A stretch of DNA of 43,249 nt from an uncultured Ectothiorhodospiraceae bacterium (GTDB lineage: Bacteria; Pseudomonadota; Gammaproteobacteria; JAABTG01): assembly GCA_937867305.1 (NCBI GenBank), contig CALMKJ010000201.1:1-43249 (forward strand), written 5' to 3'. The number at the start of each line of letters is the position of its first letter. Position 1 is the stretch's first letter. Position numbers and translations under genes: made by a program. A model generated the notes under the pieces. It ran no database searches. It worked only from the letters and a program-made list of their open reading frames with translations, and was not told the DNA's origin. This document shows, in pieces, positions 23,794 to 34,950 of this stretch.

Positions 23794-24672
23794 TCAATCG
23801 GTCGCGAAGGCCATCCGGTCTCCGCGCAGCGGGCAGCGGAAGGTGAGCCCCGCGGCCACGAGCTGCAGCCCCCGCGGGTCGGCGTTGCCCCGCCCGTAGC
23901 GGGGGTCGCCGAGGACCGGGTGCCCGAGGGCGGCGAGGTGGCGGCGGATCTGGTGGGTGCGGCCGGTCCGGATCCGGATCTGCACCACGCTCGCGTCACG
24001 CGCCCGGTCGTAGCGCTCGACGCGGTACTCGGTCAGGGCCGTTCGTCCGTCGAGCGGCAGGTCGATCCGGCCGATCGTACCGTGGCGTGCCGCGAGGTCG
24101 CCCCGGACCTCCGCCCGGTAGGTCTTTTCCGTGTCTTCGGCCTGCAGGGTCGCCGCCAGCCGGCGGGCGGCAGCGGGCGTGTGCGCTACCACCATGATGC
24201 CCGTGACCTCCCGGTCCAGCCGATGCACCGGGAACACCGGCCGCGGTCGCCCGCCCGCCTTCTCTGCCTGACGCAGCAGGCTCGCGTGGTCGCCGAAGCG
24301 GGTACCCTGGGCGAGCAGCCCGGCCGGCTTGAGCCACACGGTGTAGTCGCCGCGGTCCTCCAGGAGCGTCGCGTCCGGGGGGACGACGCCGAGTATCGCG
24401 GGGTCGTGGCAGAGGGTGATGTGGTCGCCCGGCTTGAGCTCGGTGGTCGCGCGGCGCAGGCGCCGTTCTCCGCCCGGGGTCCCGGGACGCCGGAGCCAGA
24501 CCGCCCCCTTCACCATGGCGTCCTTCACCGCGCTCCGGGACAGCCCGCACAGGCGGGCGAGGAGCTCGCTCGCCGCCGCCTCTTCCCCGGGCAGCACGCG
24601 GTGCTCGAGGACGAAGCGCCCGGCCTGGGGGCCGGGGGCGGGCGGTGAGGACGGGGGAGTGGGGATGGGCAT
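23794..24672 (-). CDS. RluA-family pseudouridine synthase
   Basis: A 292-residue RNA-modifying enzyme. An N-terminal S4-like RNA-binding part (about 20-95) precedes the catalytic domain, with the active-site Asp in PVFPVHRLDREVTG, the YRAEVRG strand, and the RTGRTHQIRRHLAALGHPVLGDPRYG motif. The substrate uridine (rRNA or tRNA) cannot be deduced; RluC/RluD-like or an orphan member are both possible. The ATG at 24672 is the first start giving the family N-terminus; the frame remains open far upstream across trkH, but that stretch is antisense and not conserved. Confidence 0.88.
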   Translation of the reverse strand: MPIPTPPSSPPAPGPQAGRFVLEHRVLPGEEAAASELLARLCGLSRSAVKDAMVKGAVWLRRPGTPGGERRLRRATTELKPGDHITLCHDPAILGVVPPDATLLEDRGDYTVWLKPAGLLAQGTRFGDHASLLRQAEKAGGRPRPVFPVHRLDREVTGIMVVAHTPAAARRLAATLQAEDTEKTYRAEVRGDLAARHGTIGRIDLPLDGRTALTEYRVERYDRARDASVVQIRIRTGRTHQIRRHLAALGHPVLGDPRYGRGNADPRGLQLVAAGLTFRCPLRGDRMAFATD

Positions 24673-24729
24673 CGGCGGTCGGCCGGGCTGGCCTGGCGAG
24701 GTGGGACAGCGGCTAGAATAGCCGCCACC

Positions 24730-26181
24730 ATGCGCCTGCGCACCGTCCTCTACCTGCTGGGGCTGCTGACGATGATGTTCAGCGTCTCCATGCTCCCACC
24801 GATGGCGATCGGCTGGTGGTACGGGGACGGCGAGACCGCCCCCTTCGGGGTCGCCTTCGGGCTCATGCTGGTCATCGGCTTTGTCTTCTGGGTGGTCACG
24901 CGTGGCCGCCGGCCCGAGATCCGGGGCTCCGACGGGTTCCTGGTGGTCACCCTGTTCTGGGTGGCGCTCTCGCTCCTGGGCGCTCTCCCCCTCATGCTCT
25001 CGGACCGGCCGCACATGGAGCTGGTCGATGCGTTCTTCGAGGCGGTCTCCGGCCTCACGACCACCGGAGGAACGGTCCTCGCGAGCGTCGAGAACCTCCC
25101 CCACAGCATCAATTTCTACCGCATGCAGCTGCAGTTCATGGGCGGCATGGGCGTGGTGGTCCTCGCCGTGGCCCTGTTGCCCATGCTGGGGATCGGCGGC
25201 ATGCAGCTCTACCGCGCGGAGACCCCGGGGCCGATGAAGGAGGACAAGCTGACGCCTCGCATCACCGAGACCGCCAAGAGCCTCTGGGTCGTCTACGTCG
25301 GTGTGAACGCGGCCTGTGCCGTGGCCTTCTGGATCGCGGGGATGGACCCCTTCGACGCGGTCACCCACGCCTTCGCGACCGTTTCGCTCGGCGGTTTCTC
25401 GACCCACGACGCGAGCATCGGGTTCTTCGACAACGCGGCCATCGAGGTCGTGGCCGGCCTGTTCACGCTGATCGCGGGGGTGAACTTCGCGCTGCACTTC
25501 CTCTCGTGGCGCTCCCTGAGCGCACGGGTGTACACGAGCGACCCGGAGTTCCGGCTCTATGCCGCGGTGATGGGCGGGCTCATCGTCGTGACGGTGGCTG
25601 TCCTCTACGCCAGTGGCACGTTCCCCTTCTGGGAATCCCTGTATCACGGTTTCTTTCAGGTCCCTTCGATCGTGGCCACCAACGGCCTGGCGACCGCGGG
25701 GTTCCCGGGCAGCTGGCCGGTCTTCGTGGTGATCCTTCTGGTGCTCGGGAGCTTCTTCGGGGGGTGCGCGGGGTCGACCTGCGGTGGCATCAAGTCCATC
25801 CGCTTCCTGCTCCTGTACCGCCAGAGCGGCCGGGAATTGAAGCTGCTCATCCACCCGCGCGGGAGCTTTGCCATCAAGCTCGGCAACCGCGTCATCGACG
25901 AGCGGGTGATGACGGCGGTGTGGGCCTTCTATTTCCTGTACATCCTCTCCTTCTGCGCGCTCTCGCTCGCCCTGGTGGCCACGGGGGTCGACGGTGCGAC
26001 GGCACTCGCCTCCGTCGCCGCGGGGCTGAACAACATGGGCGTCGGGTATGGGGGCACGGCGGCCGGCTTCGGCGGACTGAACGACATCGCCAAGTGGCTG
26101 CTCAGCTTCTCCATGCTGCTCGGTCGCCTCGAGGTCTTTCCTCTCCTGATGCTGTTCTACCCGGGCTTCTGGCGGCGATGA
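24730..26181 (+). CDS. trkH: Trk-type potassium uptake protein TrkH
   Basis: Membrane subunit of the Trk/Ktr K+ uptake system, 483 residues, the same length as E. coli TrkH. Four pore-loop repeats each carry a selectivity glycine: SGLTTTGGT, TVSLGGFST, TNGLATAGF and LNNMGVGYG. The GGCAGSTCGGIKSIR segment between repeats three and four is the TrkH signature. The cytosolic gating ring TrkA is not in the window. A CBS-domain gene follows 85 bases later and then a DASS/ArsB-type permease, suggesting a combined ion-homeostasis unit. Confidence 0.95.
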   Translation: MRLRTVLYLLGLLTMMFSVSMLPPMAIGWWYGDGETAPFGVAFGLMLVIGFVFWVVTRGRRPEIRGSDGFLVVTLFWVALSLLGALPLMLSDRPHMELVDAFFEAVSGLTTTGGTVLASVENLPHSINFYRMQLQFMGGMGVVVLAVALLPMLGIGGMQLYRAETPGPMKEDKLTPRITETAKSLWVVYVGVNAACAVAFWIAGMDPFDAVTHAFATVSLGGFSTHDASIGFFDNAAIEVVAGLFTLIAGVNFALHFLSWRSLSARVYTSDPEFRLYAAVMGGLIVVTVAVLYASGTFPFWESLYHGFFQVPSIVATNGLATAGFPGSWPVFVVILLVLGSFFGGCAGSTCGGIKSIRFLLLYRQSGRELKLLIHPRGSFAIKLGNRVIDERVMTAVWAFYFLYILSFCALSLALVATGVDGATALASVAAGLNNMGVGYGGTAAGFGGLNDIAKWLLSFSMLLGRLEVFPLLMLFYPGFWRR

Positions 26182-26265
26182 CCCGCCTGCGGAGGCCCGC
26201 CTTCACGGGCCGCGAGCCCGATGGCCTCGCGGCCGAGTGCCCTTTCTGACAGGGAGATAGCGCGC

Positions 26266-26730
26266 ATGACGGCACGGCAGTTGATGAAGGAAAGACCCAT
26301 GGTTCTCCCGCACACGGCGCGCCTGCGGGACGCCGCACGGCTCATCCTGGAGCACCGCTTCCGCAACGTCCCGGTGGTGGACGAGTCCGGCAGGTACCTC
26401 GGGGTGGTGAGCGCGAACCGCTTGCTCCAGATGGTCCTGCCGAAGGCTGCCTTCATGGAGCGGTCGGGCATCGACAGCCTGCCCTTCGTCAAGGACACGC
26501 TCGCGGATTTCCGGGAGCGGTGGCGGGAGGTCGCCTCCACCCCGGTCCTGGAGTGCCTCGACACGGACCTGGAGACCGTGACCCCGGAGACCTCGATTGC
26601 GGAGACCCTGCTCTCGCTGTACCACAATCGCACCAGCTTGCCCGTGGTGGACGCCACGACGATGCGGCTCGTCGGGATCGTTTCGCACTGGAGCGCGGGC
26701 GCTGCGATGGTAGGGGAGGGGTCGCCATGA
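26266..26730 (+). CDS. CBS-domain pair protein
   Basis: A 154-residue soluble protein made of two CBS motifs (about 3-60 and 95-148), a module that binds adenine nucleotides or related ligands and gates or regulates partner proteins. MTARQLMKERPMVLP begins repeat one, and TDLETVTPETSIAETLLSL begins repeat two. The ATG at 26266 is preferred over ATG 26221 because AGGGAG lies nine bases before it. The stop overlaps the next start (ATGA at 26727), coupling it to the permease. By position it may serve as the ligand-sensing subunit of the permease or of TrkH; this is inference. Confidence 0.85.
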   Translation: MTARQLMKERPMVLPHTARLRDAARLILEHRFRNVPVVDESGRYLGVVSANRLLQMVLPKAAFMERSGIDSLPFVKDTLADFRERWREVASTPVLECLDTDLETVTPETSIAETLLSLYHNRTSLPVVDATTMRLVGIVSHWSAGAAMVGEGSP

Positions 26731-28073
26731 GTCCGGATACCGTCCACTCCGTACAGTCCGTCGTCTTCGGCCTGGATCCGCGCTGGGTCGCGGGGGGGCT
26801 GTTCGTCGTCACCTACGCGGTCGTCATGAGCGAGCGCGTGAACCGCGCCATCGTCGCGCTGCTGGCCGCCGGCCTGATGATCTTCGCGGGCATCCTGACC
26901 CAGGACGCCGCGATCGACGGGGTGGACTTCAACACCCTGGGCCTGCTGACGGGGATGATGGTCATCGTGGCGGTCACCAAGCGCTCGGGGGTGTTCCAGT
27001 ACCTGGCGATCTGGTCGGCCAAGAAGGTCCAGGCCCGACCCTGGGGCATCCTGGTGATGCTCACGCTCGTGACCGCACTGCTGTCCGCGTTCCTCGACAA
27101 CGTCACGACCGTCCTTCTGATCGCCCCCGTCACCCTCCTCATCGCCGAGGAGCTGCGGGTGAGCCCCTACCCCTTCCTGTTCAGCGAGATCTTCGCCTCC
27201 AACATCGGCGGCACCGCGACGCTCATCGGCGACCCCCCGAACATCATGATCGGGTCGGCGGTCGACCTCACGTTCAACGACTTCGTGATGAACCTGAGCC
27301 CGGTGGTCTTGGTGGTCCTCCTGGTGACGCTGGTGCCCATCTACCTCATCTGGGGCCGGAAGATGCACGCCGAGCCCCAGTATCGGGAGCGGGTGATGAG
27401 GTTCGACGAGCGCGAGGCGATCACCGACCCGCGGCTCCTGAAGCAGTCGCTCTCCGTGCTGGGGCTGGTGCTCACTGCCTTCGTGCTGGCCCACCCGCTC
27501 CACCTGGAGCCGGCGACCATCGCCATGTTCGGCGGGGCGCTCCTGCTGCTCCTTGCCAACTGGCCTCACGGCGCCGACGAGCAGGCCCGCAACGTCCACC
27601 ACGCCTTCACCGAGGTGGAGTGGGTGACGATCTTCTTCTTCGTGGGGCTGTTCATCGTGGTGCACGGGCTCGACTCCACCGGGCTGCTGCGGATGCTGGC
27701 CGAGTGGCTCGCCGCGGCGACCGGGGGGGACCTGACCGTGACCGCGCTGTCCATCCTCTGGGTCTCGGCCATCGCCTCGGCCGTGGTCGACAACATCCCG
27801 TTCGTCGCGACCATGATTCCGCTCATCAAGTCGATGGCGCCGACCTTCGGGGGGCCGGAGGGGTTGATGCCGCTCTGGTGGTCGCTCTCGCTCGGGGCCT
27901 GCCTGGGAGGCAACGGGACCCTGGTGGGGGCCAGCGCGAACCTGATCGTGGCGGGCCTCGCGGAACGGGCCGGGCAACCGATCCGCTTCGTTCCGTTCCT
28001 GCTCGCCGCTTTTCCCCTGATGCTGCTCTCCATCGTGATCAGCACCGTATACATCTACCTGCGCTATCTCTAG
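26727..28073 (+). CDS. ArsB/NhaD-type ion permease (IT superfamily)
   Basis: A 448-residue transporter with about ten to twelve membrane helices and the two-fold repeat of the ion-transporter superfamily. Repeat one has FLDNVTTVLLIAP and GTATLIGDPPNIMIG; repeat two has VVDNIPFVATMIPL and GNGTLVGASANLI. Related proteins include ArsB arsenite exporters, P-protein-like permeases and NhaD Na+/H+ antiporters. Next to TrkH, a Na+/H+ antiport role is attractive, but arsenite or dicarboxylate transport cannot be excluded; no ars genes are nearby. It overlaps the CBS gene by four bases. Confidence 0.82.
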   Translation: MSPDTVHSVQSVVFGLDPRWVAGGLFVVTYAVVMSERVNRAIVALLAAGLMIFAGILTQDAAIDGVDFNTLGLLTGMMVIVAVTKRSGVFQYLAIWSAKKVQARPWGILVMLTLVTALLSAFLDNVTTVLLIAPVTLLIAEELRVSPYPFLFSEIFASNIGGTATLIGDPPNIMIGSAVDLTFNDFVMNLSPVVLVVLLVTLVPIYLIWGRKMHAEPQYRERVMRFDEREAITDPRLLKQSLSVLGLVLTAFVLAHPLHLEPATIAMFGGALLLLLANWPHGADEQARNVHHAFTEVEWVTIFFFVGLFIVVHGLDSTGLLRMLAEWLAAATGGDLTVTALSILWVSAIASAVVDNIPFVATMIPLIKSMAPTFGGPEGLMPLWWSLSLGACLGGNGTLVGASANLIVAGLAERAGQPIRFVPFLLAAFPLMLLSIVISTVYIYLRYL

Positions 28074-28099
28074 GCGCGGGGGGGCGAGACGTGGGAGCA

Positions 28100-28132
28100 C
28101 GGGGCCCCGCAGGGCCGGGGGCGCGGGCCCCG
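28100..28132. terminator. Candidate bidirectional terminator between convergent genes
   Basis: Complementary arms at 28100-28107 and 28125-28132 (CGGGGCCC and GGGCCCCG) enclose a 17-base GC-rich loop, between the ends of the permease and regulator genes. There is no T-run, so function is uncertain. Confidence 0.35.
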
Positions 28133-28137
28133 GGGGG

Positions 28138-28866
28138 TCAGCGGCGCGGGCGCTTCAGGGTGTCCTGCAGCGCGTCGGGCTCGGAGACCACGATCTGGTG
28201 GTCTGCGGTCTCGATCCAGCCCCGGCGCCGGAAGCTGGCGATCACCCGGCACAGGGTCTCGGTCGTGAGGCCGAGCATCGACGCCAGCTCCGAGCGCCGG
28301 GAGGGGTTCCCGCCGATGGGGAGCGCCGGCTCCTCCGGGTCGTGGTTCGCCAGAAGGTAGGAGGCCACCCGCTGCTCGGCGCTGTGCAGGGAGACGCTGC
28401 GGATCTGGCCCACCAGGGCGTGCAGGCTCCGGCTGATGACCGCCAGCATCTGCCAGGTGAGCTCCGGGTGCTGGCGGAGGTGGCGCATCAGCGAGAAGGC
28501 GTCGATGGCGACGAGACGGGTGACGTCCAGGGCCACGGCGTTCACAGGGTAACCCTGGCCCGAGAACATCGCCGCCTCCGCGAAGGTCTGGCCTGCCCCG
28601 ACGAACTCGAGCGCCTTCTCGTGCTGGTCGGAGCCGAGGAGATAGAGCTTGACGAGGCCGCTGATGCAGCAGTACACGGCGCTGCAGGGCTCCCCCTCGC
28701 GGAAGAGTTCCTCCTCGGGGCTGAAAGAGGCCAGCCGGGAGAAGCGCGCCACGGCCTCCAGGTGGGCGTCGGGAAACGCCGAGAAGAGGGTGGTGGCGCG
28801 CAGGGTCTCCGTCACCAGGGGTATCGGTGTGGTCGTCCCGGAGCCGTTGGGAGCCCTCATCCTCAT
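28138..28866 (-). CDS. Crp/Fnr-family transcriptional regulator, DNR-like
   Basis: A 242-residue regulator with an N-terminal cyclic-nucleotide-binding-type beta roll (about 25-140, GEPCSAVYCCISGLVKLY in its core), a long dimerisation helix (about 140-165) and a C-terminal winged HTH (about 180-225). The recognition helix, GLTTETLCRVIASF, keeps the Glu and Arg that read TTGAT in Fnr, with Cys in place of Ser between them. There is no N-terminal Fe-S cysteine cluster, so it is not an oxygen-sensing FNR; DNR-type nitric-oxide or nitrite response is likelier. Start ATG 28866, or 28860. A perfect FNR-type box lies 28-41 bases upstream of the start codon, and the octaheme nitrite reductase gene is divergent. 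Confidence 0.87.
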   Translation of the reverse strand: MRMRAPNGSGTTTPIPLVTETLRATTLFSAFPDAHLEAVARFSRLASFSPEEELFREGEPCSAVYCCISGLVKLYLLGSDQHEKALEFVGAGQTFAEAAMFSGQGYPVNAVALDVTRLVAIDAFSLMRHLRQHPELTWQMLAVISRSLHALVGQIRSVSLHSAEQRVASYLLANHDPEEPALPIGGNPSRRSELASMLGLTTETLCRVIASFRRRGWIETADHQIVVSEPDALQDTLKRPRR

Positions 28867-28893
28867 GGGCCTGAATGGTACCTCGACTGGCCT

Positions 28894-28907
28894 TTGATGC
28901 GGATCAA
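28894..28907. promoter_or_regulatory. FNR/DNR-type operator TTGAT-N4-ATCAA
   Basis: TTGAT at 28894-28898 and ATCAA at 28903-28907 form a perfect palindrome of the Fnr/Anr/Dnr consensus. It sits in the 306-base divergent region, 28 bases from the regulator start codon and 266 bases before the nitrite reductase start codon. If it acts as a class II activator site for the reductase, transcription would begin near 28942, leaving a leader of about 230 bases. It could equally mediate autoregulation of the regulator gene. Confidence 0.75.
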
Positions 28908-29172
28908 TCGGTCCATTGTCGACCCCACGAGCGGTGGGTCATCCTTCGAACGCAGCCCGATTTGTGTACTTTTTTTGCCTCTGCCGGGAACTTCGGCGGT
29001 GTCTGCTTTGTCGAAGGGCGTCGGCCCGGGTGGCGCGGGAGGTCTGCGGGCTTGCAGGGTGTGGCGAGTGCCTGATCGGGGTGAGTCCCCGCTCAGGCCC
29101 TTGCACAGAGGAAGGCAGCGGTTCGGGCGGTTTGGACGGGCGCTGCCGGTTGGGTTCACGAGGGGTCGAGCC
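28908..29172 (+). other. Leader region of the nitrite reductase gene
   Basis: No gene is supported here. The stretch is less GC-rich than its surroundings, with a run of seven T near 28969. An imperfect hairpin (28921-28928 with 28934-28940, one bulged C) follows the operator. A GAGGGG ribosome-binding site at 29160-29165 serves the ATG at 29173. A long leader is likely if transcription starts near the operator, but no riboswitch class is recognisable. Confidence 0.45.
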
Positions 29173-30855
29173 ATGCTACAAAAGAAGTGGGTGCACGTGG
29201 CGACGGGCCTGCTTTTCCTCGCCGGCGGCGCAGGGAGCGCCTGGGCGGCGGATAAGCCGGCACCGACACAGACGGTTCCCGCGGCGAGTTCCGGGGCCGT
29301 CAAGCCCGTGCAGGAAGAGGTTTGCTACGGGTGTCACGTCCAGATCAAAGAGATGCACGTTGCCGGCAAGCACGCCAGCATCAACTGCGCGTTCTGCCAC
29401 ACGGGAAGTGAGGAGCACATCGCCAAGGGGCCGATGTCCAAGCCGGTCACCCTCACGGGTCACTCCGTGTGCGGCACCTGCCACGCGGACCAGTACGGCT
29501 CCTTCCTCGAGATGCAGCTGAAGTCCGCGGCGCGCATCGAGAAGGCTTCCTTCGGAAGCCGGTCGCCGATGTTCGACAAGCTGATCCAGGGCCACGGCTT
29601 CGCGTTCGAGCACTGCGAGCCGCGCCAGCACGTGTTCATGTTGATGGATCACCTGATCGTAGACCGCGCCTACGGCGGCCGGTTCCAGCTGAAGAACTGG
29701 ACCGAGGTCACCAACACGAACGCGGCCTCCAAGGACCTGTGGTCGATCCTGGTGGACGTGGAGCCCTCCACCGACGAGCAGAAGAAGTTCCTCCCGTACT
29801 CGGCGACGGCGGCGAACCCGGTCTGCTTGAACTGCAAGACCCAGGACCACATCCTGAAGTGGAAGTACATGGGCGACCCCGATCCTCGCGCCAAGTGGGA
29901 TCGCACGTCCAAGACGGTGGCCTTCGCGCGTGACCTGAAGCACGGCCTGAACTGCTTCTACTGCCACGACCCGCACTCGACCGCGCCGCGCGTCGTTCGC
30001 GACGGCCTGATCCAGGCGGTGGTGGACCGCGGCCTCGGGACCTACCCCTACGACAAGGCGAAGAGCGAGAAGAGCCAGATCAAGAAGGTCATGTTCCGGG
30101 ACTTCCGGGCCATCGGCCTCCTGAGCCGGCCCGACTCCAACGTCATGTGCGCCCAGTGCCACGTGGAGTACAACTGCAACCCGGGCTTCGACACCCGGAC
30201 CGGCGAGTACTCCGTGAAGATGGACAGCCAGCTGACCAACTTCTTCCCGTGGGTCAACGTGCTGGACTACAAGGCGACCATGGACAAGGTCTTCTTCCGC
30301 GACTTCAAGCATGCGGTGACCGGCGCCCTGATCACCAAGATGCAGCACCCGGAGGCCGAGACCAACTGGGGCAGCAAGCACGAGCGTGCGGGTGTGGAGT
30401 GCAAGGACTGCCACATGCCGAAGGTGAAATCGGGCCTGCAGGGCAAGACCTACACTTGGCACGGTCAGCGGAGCGCGAAGTACCAGCTCCACGACACCTG
30501 CTCCAAGTGCCATGCCTGGACCGAGGAAGAGGCCGAGTATCAGATCGACAACATCCAGAACATGATCAACGGAAAGATCATCAAGGCGGAGTTCTGGATC
30601 TCGCAGTTCATCGATGCCTTCGCGAAGGCCAAGGCCGCGTGCGTGGACGAGGAGACCCTGAAGAAGGCTCGCGACATGCACGAGACCATGCATCCGCTCT
30701 GGGAGTGGTGGACTGCCGAGAACTCGGTGGGCTTCCACAACCCGGCGATCGCGCGTGAGTCCCTGACGAAGGCGATCACGCTGGCCCAGGACGGCATGAA
30801 GATGCTGAACGAGGCCGCTGCGAAGGCGACGAAGTGCGCCGTGGCCGCGAAGTAA
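29173..30855 (+). CDS. Octaheme cytochrome c nitrite reductase (ONR/TvNiR type)
   Basis: Periplasmic enzyme reducing nitrite to ammonium with six electrons. The 560 residues have a signal peptide (cleavage near AWA-AD, residue 26) and eight haem sites: CXXCH at C51, C72, C100, C261, C326, C410 and C443, and a catalytic CXXCK (CLNCK, C218-K222). Active-site residues of the NrfA/ONR family are visible: Arg in DRAYGGR (R165), Tyr in CHVEYNC (Y333) and His in MQHPEAE (H392). Y333 and C335 have the Tyr-x-Cys spacing of the cross-linked pair (Tyr303/Cys305) of the Thioalkalivibrio enzyme. ATG 29173 is chosen for its ribosome-binding site and signal peptide, although the frame is open far upstream. 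A strong terminator follows. Confidence 0.95.
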   Translation: MLQKKWVHVATGLLFLAGGAGSAWAADKPAPTQTVPAASSGAVKPVQEEVCYGCHVQIKEMHVAGKHASINCAFCHTGSEEHIAKGPMSKPVTLTGHSVCGTCHADQYGSFLEMQLKSAARIEKASFGSRSPMFDKLIQGHGFAFEHCEPRQHVFMLMDHLIVDRAYGGRFQLKNWTEVTNTNAASKDLWSILVDVEPSTDEQKKFLPYSATAANPVCLNCKTQDHILKWKYMGDPDPRAKWDRTSKTVAFARDLKHGLNCFYCHDPHSTAPRVVRDGLIQAVVDRGLGTYPYDKAKSEKSQIKKVMFRDFRAIGLLSRPDSNVMCAQCHVEYNCNPGFDTRTGEYSVKMDSQLTNFFPWVNVLDYKATMDKVFFRDFKHAVTGALITKMQHPEAETNWGSKHERAGVECKDCHMPKVKSGLQGKTYTWHGQRSAKYQLHDTCSKCHAWTEEEAEYQIDNIQNMINGKIIKAEFWISQFIDAFAKAKAACVDEETLKKARDMHETMHPLWEWWTAENSVGFHNPAIARESLTKAITLAQDGMKMLNEAAAKATKCAVAAK

Positions 30856-30879
30856 TCTAGGCTCGTACCCCTGAAGGAC

Positions 30880-30915
30880 GGGGGGGCCGGCGGATGCCGT
30901 GCCCCCCCTTTTTTT
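30880..30915 (+). terminator. Strong intrinsic terminator after the nitrite reductase gene
   Basis: Seven G at 30880-30886 pair with seven C at 30902-30908, extended inward by C-G and CGGC/GCCG pairs around a GGAT loop with one bulged T. Seven T follow (30909-30915). It lies 25 bases after the stop codon and 50 bases before ccmF, so the maturation genes probably receive only read-through or use a promoter of their own. Confidence 0.9.
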
Positions 30916-30964
30916 GTCGTATCCTCCGGGCTTCCCGGATTCCCCTTCGTCGAGCGGTCCCGAG

Positions 30965-33373
30965 ATGATTCCCGAGCTTGGCCACTTCGCCCTGGTTCTG
31001 GCCCTCGTCCTGGCGGTGGTCCAGGGGCTCGTGCCGCTGGCCGGTGCTGCCCGGCGCGACGAGATCTGGATGGGGATGGCCCCGCGGGTCGCCGTGGGGC
31101 AGTTCGCCTTCGTGGCACTCGCCTTCGGCGCGCTCGCCTACGCGTTCCTGGTGAACGACTTCTCGGTGGAGAACGTCGCCCACAACTCTTACACCAGACT
31201 CCCGACCCTTTACCGCTTCACGGCCCTCTGGGGGTCCCACGAGGGCTCTCTGCTGCTCTGGACCCTGCTCCTCGCGGGTTGGACGGCCGCGGTGGGCCTC
31301 GTCGGGCGGCAACTCCCCCGCGACCTGCTGGCACGGGTGATCGGGGTCCTGGGGCTCGTCAGCACCGGCTTCCTGCTTTTCCTGCTGACCACCTCGAGCC
31401 CCTTCCGCCGCCTCTCCCCGGCGCCCACGGAGGGTGCCGACCTGCACCCGCTGCTCCAGGATTTCGGCATGGTGGTGCACCCGCCGATGCTCTACCTGGG
31501 TTACGTCGGTTTCTCGGTGGCCTTCGCCTTTGCGGTGGCGGCACTGATCGCGGGCCGCATCGACGCGCCCTGGGCGCGCTGGGCACGGCCCTGGACCACC
31601 GCGGCCTGGGTCTTCCTCACCGCCGGACTCGCCCTCGGCAGCTGGTGGGCCTACTACGAGCTCGGCTGGGGGGGGTGGTGGTTCTGGGACCCCACGGAGA
31701 ACGCGGCCCTGATGCCCTGGTTGTCGGGGACCGCGCTCGTGCACTCGCTGGCGGTAGTGCACCGGCGGGGGGCGCTTCGGGTCTGGACCCTGCTGCTCTC
31801 GATCACCACGTTCGCCCTGAGCCTCCTCGGCACCTTCCTGGTGCGCTCGGGCGTGCTGTCCTCGGTGCACGCCTTTGCCATCGACCCCGCGCGGGGGGTG
31901 TTCATCCTGACCCTGCTGACTCTCGTGGTCGGCGGCCCTCTGCTGCTCTTCGCCCTGCGCGCGCACCGCCTGGCCGGGGCCCGGGGCTTCGCGCCCCTCT
32001 CCCGGGAGTCCCTCCTGCTCGCGGGCAACGTGCTGCTGCTCACCGCTACCGCCTTCGTGCTGCTCGGGACGGTCTACCCCCTGGTCCTCGACGCCCTCGG
32101 CTTCGGCAAGGTCTCGGTGGGCCCCCCGTACTTCGAGGCGGTGTTCGTGCCGGTGGCGCTGCCGTTCCTCCTGCTGCTGGGACTGGGCCCCCTGACCCTC
32201 TGGGGAGAGGACCGCCCGGGTGCGCTGGGGCGGAGGGTCCGGGGCGCGGTGTTCCTGAGCGCAGCCATCGCACTCGGAGCGGGCCTTGCGCTCCACCTCT
32301 GGCGTCCCCTGGTCGGGGTCGGTCTCTTGCTCGCCGCCTGGATTGCGGTGACGGCCCTCGGCAACGTGGTGGCGCGCTGGCGCGCCACCCCCGGGGGGGC
32401 GTTCGGACGGGCCGCCGCCCCGCCCGCGGGCTTCTACGGCATGACGCTCGCCCACCTGGGCGTCGCCGTGGCCGTGGTCGGCGTCAGTCTCGTCGGTGGC
32501 CTCGCCTCCGAGCGCCACGTCCGGATGGCCCCCGGGGACACCGTCAGCCTCGGCGGCTACACGCTGCTCTTCTACGGCGTGGCCCGCGTGGACGGACCGA
32601 ATTACGTGGCGGCTCAGGCCGCGGTCGAGGTGACGGGCGGGGCGCGGGAGACCTACCTCCTGCGTCCCGAGAAGAGGGTCTACAGCGCCTCGGAGATGAC
32701 CATGACCGAGGCCGCCATCGACTCGCACCTCACCCACGACCTCTACGTCTCCCTCGGACAGTCGCTCGGCAACGGGGCGTGGAGCGTCAGCGTGTACCTG
32801 AAGCCGTTCGTGTCCTGGATCTGGGGCGGTGCCCTGCTCGCCGTCCTGGGCGGGCTGGTGGCCCTGGCAGGCCGGTCGGCCGGGGTCCGGCCCGTCATGG
32901 GGGTGCTCCTGGTCGCCTGGCTTGCGGTGGGGGCGTCCTTTGCGCCGGACGCTGGGGCGCGAGAGGCCGAGCCCCTCGCCGACGACCCGGTGATCGAGGC
33001 GCGCCTCGTGCGGCTCGCCCAGGAACTGCGCTGCGTGGTGTGCCAGAACGAATCCCTCGCCGGCTCGCGGGCCGACCTCGCCGAGGACCTGCGCCGCGAG
33101 ATCCGCGACCTCATGCGCGCCGGGCACCCGGACGAGGAGATCGTCGAGTTCCTGGTCCAGCGCTACGGTGAGTTCGTGCTGTACCGTCCCCGGGTCAGGC
33201 CGGAGACGTGGCTGTTGTGGTTCGGACCGGCGGTGATTGCCGCTGCGGCAATCACCGGTCTGCTCGCGTACCTGCGTCGCGCCAGGGCCACGGGCGTCCC
33301 TCCCGCAGAGGGGGAGACCTCGCCGGCGCAGCAGGAATCCCTTCCCCTCGACCCGGAGTCACACCACTCATGA
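30965..33373 (+). CDS. CcmF-CcmH fusion: cytochrome c haem lyase
   Basis: An 802-residue membrane protein joining two cytochrome c maturation (system I) subunits. Residues 1-644 are a full CcmF: about 14 helices, the haem-handling WWD segment GWGGWWFWDPTENAA (about 232-246), and the four conserved histidines H172, H260, H302 and H497. From Met645 the chain is CcmH: a hydrophobic leader, the thioredox motif LRCVVCQ with C690 and C693, the three-helix domain, and a C-terminal helix. Topology is compatible: CcmF ends in the cytoplasm and the leader carries CcmH into the periplasm. ccmG, normally between the two, is missing. No stop or frameshift separates them. ccmI follows with ATGA overlap. 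Next to a CXXCK cytochrome, a dedicated NrfEF-like lyase is likely. Confidence 0.92.
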   Translation: MIPELGHFALVLALVLAVVQGLVPLAGAARRDEIWMGMAPRVAVGQFAFVALAFGALAYAFLVNDFSVENVAHNSYTRLPTLYRFTALWGSHEGSLLLWTLLLAGWTAAVGLVGRQLPRDLLARVIGVLGLVSTGFLLFLLTTSSPFRRLSPAPTEGADLHPLLQDFGMVVHPPMLYLGYVGFSVAFAFAVAALIAGRIDAPWARWARPWTTAAWVFLTAGLALGSWWAYYELGWGGWWFWDPTENAALMPWLSGTALVHSLAVVHRRGALRVWTLLLSITTFALSLLGTFLVRSGVLSSVHAFAIDPARGVFILTLLTLVVGGPLLLFALRAHRLAGARGFAPLSRESLLLAGNVLLLTATAFVLLGTVYPLVLDALGFGKVSVGPPYFEAVFVPVALPFLLLLGLGPLTLWGEDRPGALGRRVRGAVFLSAAIALGAGLALHLWRPLVGVGLLLAAWIAVTALGNVVARWRATPGGAFGRAAAPPAGFYGMTLAHLGVAVAVVGVSLVGGLASERHVRMAPGDTVSLGGYTLLFYGVARVDGPNYVAAQAAVEVTGGARETYLLRPEKRVYSASEMTMTEAAIDSHLTHDLYVSLGQSLGNGAWSVSVYLKPFVSWIWGGALLAVLGGLVALAGRSAGVRPVMGVLLVAWLAVGASFAPDAGAREAEPLADDPVIEARLVRLAQELRCVVCQNESLAGSRADLAEDLRREIRDLMRAGHPDEEIVEFLVQRYGEFVLYRPRVRPETWLLWFGPAVIAAAAITGLLAYLRRARATGVPPAEGETSPAQQESLPLDPESHHS

Positions 33374-34326
33374 CCATGCCTCGAGAGACCATCCTGTTCT
33401 GGGTCCTGGCGGCCGCCCTGGTGGCGGTCGGACTGGCCTTCATCCTGGCGCCTCTCCTGCGCCGGCGCGACGCGGAAGACACCGGCGGCAAGGCCCGGCG
33501 GCCCCTCGCGCTCCTGCTGACCGCCCTGGTCCCCGCCGCTGCGATCGGTCTCTACGTCTTCCTGTCGCGGATGGAGCCGCCCCGGCCCGCGGCGGAGCCG
33601 GTCCCGGGCGCCAGCGCCGAGGCGACTCCCGCGGTTTCCCCGAGCGAGGCGACGGTGGCCGCCCCCCTGCCCGGTGCTCCCACCGCGACGCTGGAGGGCG
33701 CCCCGGTTGCCCCTGCGGAGGGGACCCCAGCCGCTCCCGGGGGGGAGGGCGCGGCCCAGGCGGCCGAGCCCACCCTGACGCAGCTGGAGGCGCGGGTCCA
33801 GGAACGGCCCGACGACGGCGAGGGCTGGTTGCTGCTCGGCCAGCGCTACGTGCAGCTCGAGCGCGCCGGGGAGGCCGTGGAGGCCCTGAAGCGCGCGACC
33901 GAGCTCCTGCCCGAGAAGGCGGGCGCCTGGTCGGCGTACGCCGAGGCCATGGCCATGGAGCGGGGCACCGACCTCGACGGCGAGCCGATGGCGACCGTGT
34001 ACAAGGCGCTGGAACTGGACGTGAAGGACCCGAAGGCGCTGGAGCTTGCCGGGCTGTACCACTTCAGCAAGGGCAACTACAAGCAGGCGGGCTTCTACTG
34101 GACGCGCCTGCTGCGCGTCCTCCCCGAGGGCACACCCTTCGCCGAGGAGATCGAGTCCGCCGCCCGGGAGGCCCGCCGCCGGGGGGAATCGGGTCTCGGC
34201 GTGACGCTCGGAGAGACGCTCGAAGATGCGTTGCCGCGGCAGAGCCCGACGCCCGCGGAGGCCCCGGCGCAGACCCCGTTGCCCCTGCCAACCCCGGCGA
34301 CGGAATCGCCGCCACCCGCGTCCTGA
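33370..34326 (+). CDS. ccmI: Cytochrome c maturation protein CcmI (NrfG-like) with TPR domain
   Basis: A 318-residue apocytochrome chaperone that presents the C-terminal part of unfolded c-type cytochromes to the haem lyase. Two membrane helices (about 8-28 and 45-65) are separated by a short basic loop; a Pro/Ala-rich periplasmic linker (about 70-135) leads to the TPR domain (about 136-265, GEGWLLLGQRYVQLERAGEAVE in its first repeats) and a proline-rich tail. The start overlaps the CcmF-CcmH stop (ATGA). In E. coli the equivalent for the nitrite reductase CXXCK haem is NrfG. No other ccm gene is in the window. Confidence 0.9.
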   Translation: MTMPRETILFWVLAAALVAVGLAFILAPLLRRRDAEDTGGKARRPLALLLTALVPAAAIGLYVFLSRMEPPRPAAEPVPGASAEATPAVSPSEATVAAPLPGAPTATLEGAPVAPAEGTPAAPGGEGAAQAAEPTLTQLEARVQERPDDGEGWLLLGQRYVQLERAGEAVEALKRATELLPEKAGAWSAYAEAMAMERGTDLDGEPMATVYKALELDVKDPKALELAGLYHFSKGNYKQAGFYWTRLLRVLPEGTPFAEEIESAAREARRRGESGLGVTLGETLEDALPRQSPTPAEAPAQTPLPLPTPATESPPPAS

Positions 34327-34347
34327 TCCGTTACGCCTCTCCGGCCG

Positions 34348-34384
34348 AACGGCCGCCGCCAGCCCCTTGCGGCGGCCGTTTTTT
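34348..34384 (+). terminator. Intrinsic terminator after ccmI
   Basis: Twelve-base perfect stem (34348-34359 with 34369-34380), nine-base loop, then six T at 34379-34384. It begins 22 bases after the ccmI stop and closes the nitrite reductase/maturation cluster. Confidence 0.92.
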
Positions 34385-34485
34385 CCCAACATCATGCCGC
34401 CGCCCGCAGTCCCGGTCCGGCATCCGCCCGAGCCTGTCCTGCGGCGCATTCGAGCACAGGCGCGGACTGGATCGGAGGGGACGGC

Positions 34486-34950
34486 ATGCTGGGCCCAGGC
34501 GACAAGGCTCCCGATTTCTCATTGCCGGACACCGAGATGCGCCTGCGCACCCTCGGCGAGTTCGCGGGGCGCAAGCTGGTGCTGTACTTCTACCCCAAGG
34601 ACGACACCCCGGGGTGTACCCTGATGGCCACGGATTTCAGCGAGCTGCTCGACGAGTTCGAGGCCGCGGGCGCGGCCGTGGCCGGAGTGAGCCCCGACGA
34701 CTGTTTCAGCCACCAGGCCTTCCGGGACAAGTACGGCCTGAAGGTCACTCTCCTCGCGGACGTGGACCGGGAGGCGTGCGCAAGCTACGGGGTGTACCAG
34801 GAGAGGGAGAAGAACGGGCTCAAGGCCATGGCCATCGTGCGGTCGACCTTCGTCGTCGACCCGGATGGGAAGGTCCGCATCGCCGAGTACGGGGTCTCCC
34901 CGAAGGGCCACGCGGCGCGGGCCCTGGATTGGGTGAAGGAGATGGGGTGA
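34486..34950 (+). CDS. bcp: Peroxiredoxin of the BCP/PrxQ family
   Basis: Thiol peroxidase of 154 residues that reduces hydrogen and organic peroxides. The peroxidatic cysteine is C44 in PKDDTPGCT. The resolving cysteine five residues later in E. coli Bcp is missing (the position is Ala/Thr), while C73 and C97 are present elsewhere, so resolution may be atypical or depend on another thiol. The fold segments FSLPDTEMRLRTL, GVSPDD, STFVVDPDGKVR are standard. ATG 34486 has a GGAGGGG ribosome-binding site. Monocistronic by appearance, after the ccmI terminator. Confidence 0.9.
   Translation: MLGPGDKAPDFSLPDTEMRLRTLGEFAGRKLVLYFYPKDDTPGCTLMATDFSELLDEFEAAGAAVAGVSPDDCFSHQAFRDKYGLKVTLLADVDREACASYGVYQEREKNGLKAMAIVRSTFVVDPDGKVRIAEYGVSPKGHAARALDWVKEMG

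Follow-up and report, generated by a model that had tools for sequence, protein, structure and literature searches.

The window studied here, positions 1 to 43,249 of contig CALMKJ010000201.1 from an uncultured Ectothiorhodospiraceae bacterium (assembly GCA_937867305.1), carries a gene for an octahaem nitrite reductase (ONR) followed on the same strand by two genes for cytochrome c haem lyase components, ccmFH and ccmI. The ONR gene (29173..30855, plus strand) encodes 560 amino acids with eight haem motifs, seven CXXCH and one CXXCK (CLNCK), the combination stated for ONR (PMC5433712; this paper, PMC3601427, PMC12285233 and PMC6976685 are cited for the portions of their text that were available). 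The protein shares 58% identity with 2zo5, an eight-haem nitrite reductase of known structure, including an identical CHVEYNC motif with its Tyr and Cys, and was the only match to PF02335 (Cytochrom_C552) in the genome. Divergent from it lies a gene for a DNR-like regulator of the Crp/Fnr family (28138..28866, minus strand; PF00027 and PF13545, the cNMP-binding and Crp-like helix-turn-helix domains). Its best relative in the PDB was the DNR protein 3dkw (E 3.5e-20) and the nearest NCBIfam model was FtrB, with a score below the cut-off. The gap between regulator and ONR holds a perfect FNR/DNR box, TTGATGCGGATCAA (28894..28907). The pattern TTGATN4ATCAA had this single perfect match in the window, against 0.01 expected by chance.

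The ccmFH gene (30965..33373, plus strand) encodes 802 amino acids in which Cytochrom_C_asm, CcmF_C and CcmH were matched in one frame, the CcmF part covering approximately residues 1-640 and the CcmH part, with the motif LRCVVC, approximately residues 656-790. The WWD haem motif (WGGWWFWDP) is kept, as are the four conserved CcmF histidines (H172, H260, H302 and H497), placed by their E. coli positions. In a mixed CcmF/CcmH alignment the CcmH rows reached only 17-23% identity, a sign that they were misplaced there. Overlapping ccmFH in an ATGA, ccmI (33370..34326, plus strand) encodes a CcmI/NrfG-like membrane-anchored tetratricopeptide repeat (TPR) protein (PF23914), whose PDB matches include the NrfG structure 2e2e (E 4.7e-9). 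The lyase proteins passed the NCBIfam cut-offs of TIGR00353 and NF007691, and none in the window passed those of TIGR03145 (NrfE), TIGR03147 (NrfF) or NF007692 (NrfG); on these comparisons, orthology of the window CcmF to E. coli NrfE is not supported. Between ONR and ccmFH lies an intrinsic terminator (30879..30915, plus strand), a strong, bulged G+C-rich hairpin followed by seven T residues (z -3.47). An earlier sequence-only reading of this DNA had placed the regulator, the perfect box, an ONR with a CXXCK site, a CcmF-CcmH fusion and CcmI here, and each was recovered where it had been put. It had also described the locus as lacking ccmABCDE and ccmG. In our phmmer comparison of all window frames with CcmA, B, C, E, F, G, H and I, once weak ABC-ATPase matches had been filtered out, no other ccm gene was listed.

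The genome to which the window belongs comprises 2.80 Mb in 222 contigs and is listed as 100% complete with 4.1% contamination. A search for another ccm set, proposed by the same reading, identified ccmA, B, C, E, F, G, H and I on contig C53 (these eight were the queries; ccmD was not among them). Because of this second set, the trio of CcmF, CcmH and CcmI functions encoded by ccmFH-ccmI is an extra lyase. The locus is also not the self-contained unit that had been suggested, since CcmABCDE and CcmG must be supplied by the C53 set. A search of the genome for ResB gave no match. A CcmC-like match on contig C96 (278 amino acids), presumably a YpjD/HemX protein and lying beside a membrane protein of CorB-type appearance, was not counted as a lyase.

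Three of 56 related genomes were found to encode ONR proper, namely the window genome, G398 of the same genus (99% identical) and G400, from another genus of the family (60-61%). A second full-length CcmF was found in the same three and in none of the others. A Crp-family frame is divergent from ONR in G398 and G400 too, and the FNR/DNR box is perfect in G398 and has one mismatch in G400 (0.09 expected there by chance). G398 carries the same CcmF-CcmH fusion (92%), and in G400 ONR is followed by separate ccmF, ccmG, ccmH and ccmI genes. The fusion is thus probably derived: from an ancestral ONR-ccmF-ccmG-ccmH-ccmI cluster, loss of ccmG would have joined ccmF to ccmH. The fusion had been regarded as different from both known dedicated lyases; with the unfused genes present in the sister genus, it looks instead like a condensed form of the NrfEFG solution. 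A further family member, G399, gave a 30% match to ONR in a different protein. At L072:4918-7305 this genome, which is 85% complete and gave a single CcmF match, encodes an NrfA-like protein with CXXCH motifs only, beside a four-haem NrfH-like protein.

Conservation of the linkage, which the sequence-only reading had likewise proposed to check, was assessed in a species-genome collection scanned once with an ONR alignment and two peptide patterns, so that ONRs with neither pattern were missed. The scan yielded 74 ONR loci from other species, and in 35 of these a CcmF was encoded on the same strand within 10 kb; the linkage thus recurs. The linked loci comprised full ccm sets, 14 of them downstream and 5 upstream of ONR, ccmF-ccmI (12), ccmFGHI (1), and ccmF or ccmF-ccmG cut off by the end of a contig (3; in L074 approximately 3 kb downstream). 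Neither CcmH nor CcmG was found beside ONR in the ccmF-ccmI sets (L082, L083, L112 and nine similar loci), in agreement with the statement that NrfF is not essential (PMC3601427). The CcmF_C search covered all but 24 of the 74 loci; CcmF was found in the genomes of 45 loci, and 34 of these loci were linked. Of the 11 others, the sequence of five stops no more than 300 bases from ONR, ccmABC or ccmABCE lies downstream in two (L091, approximately 8 kb away, and L108), and L073 has a ccmI fragment upstream at the contig edge; the last three are considered below. L096 has ccmA at the contig end, and no CcmF_C was found in its genome. ResB was searched for in 32 genomes (the window genome and those of 31 loci, most without ccm), 25 of which gave matches over the cut-off, 24 of them at E 1.4e-32 or better, so that ccm-less ONR loci lie largely in System II bacteria. 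One Proteobacteria metagenome-assembled genome (MAG), Cu122P3bin14 (G495), has two ONR loci, L138 and L141, only one of which is beside a ccm set.

CcmF copies were counted in 53 genomes, a good number of which are draft MAGs, and the counts divided almost cleanly by type of ONR-linked set; two of the second copies were fragments. Where ONR lies beside ccmF-ccmI, two CcmFs were found in 10 of 11 genomes (L086 left out), the exception being L084, a 1.7-Mb MAG. Two were also found in the window genome, G398, G400 and four Thioalkalivibrio-type genomes (G466, G473, G475 and G486). Partial sets therefore mostly coexist with another ccm set, as expected if CcmABCDE is borrowed. The Thioalkalivibrio-named MAG G466 has two ONR-ccmFGHI loci (L090 and L153), both of its CcmF copies being ONR-linked.

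A quick CcmF tree was calculated from 87 rows, leaving out E. coli NrfE, L097 and L086. The ONR-linked CcmFs, 41 rows when L164 (the other CcmF of the MAG holding L142) is counted in, formed one side of a branch with a Shimodaira-Hasegawa-like approximate likelihood ratio (SH-aLRT) support of 95.4; in most of these genomes the main CcmF lies outside this group. A tree constrained to unite four main CcmFs of the family with the linked copies from the window, G398 and G400 was rejected by the approximately unbiased (AU) test (p 3.6e-70), so these linked copies are not a duplicate made within the family. Co-variation was examined by a Mantel test in 17 genomes with both copies, with the MAG of L142 and L165 dropped; two of the 17 (G450 and G475) have their ONR on a different contig from the CcmF paired with it. 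ONR distances correlated with those of the linked CcmF at r 0.911 (partial 0.813) and with those of the main CcmF at r 0.749 (partial 0.354). L142 and L165 represent two different ONRs in one Thiobacillaceae MAG. The L165 cassette, which carries a fusion gene on a 3.6-kb contig (ONR end 85% and CcmF approximately 77% identical), may be mis-binned and was for this reason not counted as proof of transfer between lineages.

From these data, ccmFH-ccmI is likely to encode an accessory System I haem lyase that serves the adjacent ONR and works like E. coli NrfEFG. Read in this way, the locus is an ONR-dedicated NrfEFG-type lyase in a new, fused and reduced form. Haem would be exported and loaded onto CcmE by the CcmABCDE set of C53, and the CcmF half of the fusion would take holo-CcmE, while its tethered CcmH half, through LRCVVC, would handle the cysteines. 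The TPR protein would hold apo-ONR and present the active-site CXXCK motif. The seven CXXCH sites would probably be filled by the main CcmFGHI. Specificity of the trio for CXXCK is suggested by analogy with E. coli NrfEFG.

Several observations weigh against a dedicated lyase of this kind. Genomes with ONR beside a full ccm set had one CcmF in 19 of 19 cases, so a separate lyase is not always needed, and two genomes with partial sets, those of L084 and G466, lack a separate main CcmF. No ccm gene lies near ONR at L102, L103 and L138, the last three of the 11 unlinked loci, although their genomes bear CcmF. When E. coli NrfE was placed in the tree, support for the ONR-linked set, then of 43 rows, was 86 (99 for 38 of them), and in a quick FastTree run extended by seven rows, two changes rather than one were required for the set. 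A CcmFH fusion also exists where ONR does not. In a sample of 398 genomes searched at E of at most 1e-150, at least one further stop-free fusion was found among the matches listed, in G246, a genome without a match to the ONR query, so that the fusion by itself is no mark of CXXCK specificity. The CcmF of this fusion (L175:8394-10925) was nearest by path to a main CcmF of another relative, and the gene is near CXXCH-only cytochromes, an NHL-repeat protein and a PPIase. In addition, the CcmF of Shewanella oneidensis appears to serve both motifs (PMC6976685). Of the proposal that the trio is the dedicated ONR lyase, two parts stand, namely that these are not the only ccmF, ccmH and ccmI in the genome and that the linkage to ONR recurs; the single CcmF of all 19 full-set genomes does not fit it.

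The same 19 genomes favour a less probable, though possible, alternative in which the trio is dedicated to its client and not to the motif, maturing all eight ONR haems or adding capacity when ONR is induced. This explanation shares the ONR-dedicated core with an NrfEFG-like function and differs from it in the CXXCK step. The sole CcmF found in each of the 19 genomes falls in the ONR-linked group and must do everything, so CXXCK competence need not be a separate function. A residue of the WWD motif points the same way, separating the classes imperfectly. At position 249 of the window CcmF, where Phe is usual, Leu was present in 21 of 21 dedicated ONR-linked CcmFs (the incomplete L097 and L086 dropped) and in five proteins of NrfE type, among them E. 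coli NrfE and one that falls narrowly short of the TIGR03145 cut-off, compared with 4 of 53 other CcmFs and 1 of 26 further loci. Among the sole-set CcmFs, L164 included, only 5 of 20 have Leu, and one of the 4 other CcmFs with Leu is the main CcmF of the window genome, a further point against a lyase set apart by motif. With these exceptions, Leu249 was rejected as a mark of CXXCK lyases and is a correlation only. Against motif-independent maturation, the E. coli Ccm proteins by themselves suffice for the CXXCH haems of NrfA, the CXXCK haem requiring NrfEFG (PMC3601427, PMC12285233), and exactly one CXXCK was found in 76 of 77 ONR frames, the remaining frame being a fragment with four motifs.

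How the lyase genes are expressed was approached through the terminator. The 200 bases after ONR were surveyed at 73 loci (five of 78 were dropped for too little sequence). Where ccmF or ccmA lies on the strand of ONR, a comparable terminator was found at 40 of 42 loci (35/37 with ccm downstream, 5/5 with ccm upstream). In the controls, 21 of 365 dinucleotide-shuffled sequences and 17 of 355 randomly chosen places had one. Its hairpin sequence varies between lineages while the pairing is kept. In the window, the terminator between ONR and ccmFH probably passes a fraction of the transcripts; we propose that little lyase would then be made per enzyme. A terminator was also found at 19 of the 31 ONR loci without linked ccm, which weighs against such a role, since the terminator may be a long-standing part of the ONR gene and not a means of setting the dose. 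In the ccmF-ccmI cassettes, with the ccmF start taken from alignment to the window CcmF, the T-run is separated from the start codon by 12-30 nucleotides in 12 of 12 cases. This leaves little room for an ordinary promoter and suggests that in these cassettes reduced read-through is the simplest way to express the lyase. The distance is 49 nucleotides in the window, approximately 150 in G400 and 162-164 in three Thioalkalivibrio-type loci, which may give room for a separate promoter. It is conceivable, if somewhat doubtful, that the hairpin is a full terminator and that ccmFH is expressed independently of ONR from a promoter of its own. These longer gaps and the terminators at unlinked ONR genes favour such an arrangement; the narrow spacing in all 12 ccmF-ccmI cassettes speaks against it, as does a sigma-70 scan of positions 28000-34600, covering one promoter type, which listed no promoter. 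A simple terminator scan of the same interval did not list the bulged hairpin after ONR.

That ccmFH-ccmI is a spare general maturation set lying beside ONR by chance is very unlikely: CcmF, CcmH and CcmI are general maturation proteins and second sets occur near other cytochromes in G246 and G086, but same-strand linkage to ONR recurs in several arrangements, second copies among the 56 relatives are confined to ONR-bearing genomes, and the ONR-linked CcmFs lie in a separate group and co-vary with ONR.

The closest known counterpart is E. coli NrfEFG, in which CcmF-, CcmH- and CcmI-like proteins are encoded beside a CXXCK nitrite reductase in a genome with a separate complete ccm operon. The window differs in that its probable client is an octahaem ONR and not NrfA, that CcmF and CcmH are fused, and that its CcmF part resembles ONR-linked and ordinary CcmFs far more than it does NrfE, which fell far outside the ONR-linked CcmFs on a very long branch. 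Shewanella SirEFG is likewise a second set of CcmF-, CcmH- and CcmI-like proteins with one multihaem client (SirA) alongside the main Ccm (PMC6976685); it is likened here by description alone, and the odd site of SirA is CX12NKGCH, not CXXCK. The ONR of Thioalkalivibrio (TvNiR) is a 58% identical enzyme with the same CXXCK and Tyr/Cys motifs. In Thioalkalivibrio-named MAGs, ONR is followed by ccmFGHI (L090) or by ccmF running into the contig end (L097); there, unlike in the window, the lyase genes are unfused and ccmG is kept. Wolinella NrfI is also a dedicated lyase for a CXXCK haem (PMC12285233), yet it is a CcsBA-type System II protein, and the window genome gave no ResB match.

The nearest precedent in the literature is a count of 55 species with NrfA, a few of them with seven CXXCH; 18 encode it together with NrfEFG in one operon (PMC3601427). 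A review of NrfA maturation mentions ONR without its lyase in the text available (PMC12285233). Term searches of PMC5433712 and PMC6449678 gave no mention of ccm or lyase genes, a search of PMC10746174 found neither CXXCK nor NrfE, and the accessible portions of PMC6146748 and PMC4429474 hold nothing bearing on ONR-linked ccm genes. No description of such genes was found in the literature searched, which leaves most subscription papers outside its scope and includes papers accessible in part.

Outside the lyase genes, a peroxiredoxin gene is the neighbour at position 34486, and a scan of viral contigs with the ONR protein gave no match. Compared with G398 in 1-kb steps, most of the window was 87-96% identical. 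Positions 24001-30830 form a near-identical tract with contig C2 of G398, from a TrkH-like gene to the end of ONR: each 1-kb step from 24001 to 30000 was 99.8-100% identical, and the change lies at approximately 30.8 kb, at the ONR/ccmFH junction. Either the regulator and ONR were recently exchanged without the lyase genes, or one of the two assemblies is chimeric. The tract covers the regulator and nearly all of ONR and leaves out the lyase genes, which also speaks against a self-contained unit.

In a broader scenario, which we hold to be evenly balanced, ONR co-evolved with its own CcmF group travelling between proteobacterial lineages. The set would have been repeatedly trimmed from a full set to ccmFGHI, ccmFH-ccmI or ccmF-ccmI, in step with retention or loss of a separate general set by the host, and its dose would be set by terminator read-through. 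The maturation of the ONR active-site haem is left untreated in the available text of the reviews, which discuss NrfA. A terminator between enzyme and lyase would be a simple way to set the ratio of enzyme to maturase, and the Leu-for-Phe change in the WWD motif of CcmF, common to ONR lyases and NrfE, is, with its exceptions, a candidate for motif choice. The ONR loci offer natural lyase variants of falling size, with or without CcmG and with CcmH separate, fused or absent, which could tell which parts of a System I lyase a CXXCK haem needs.

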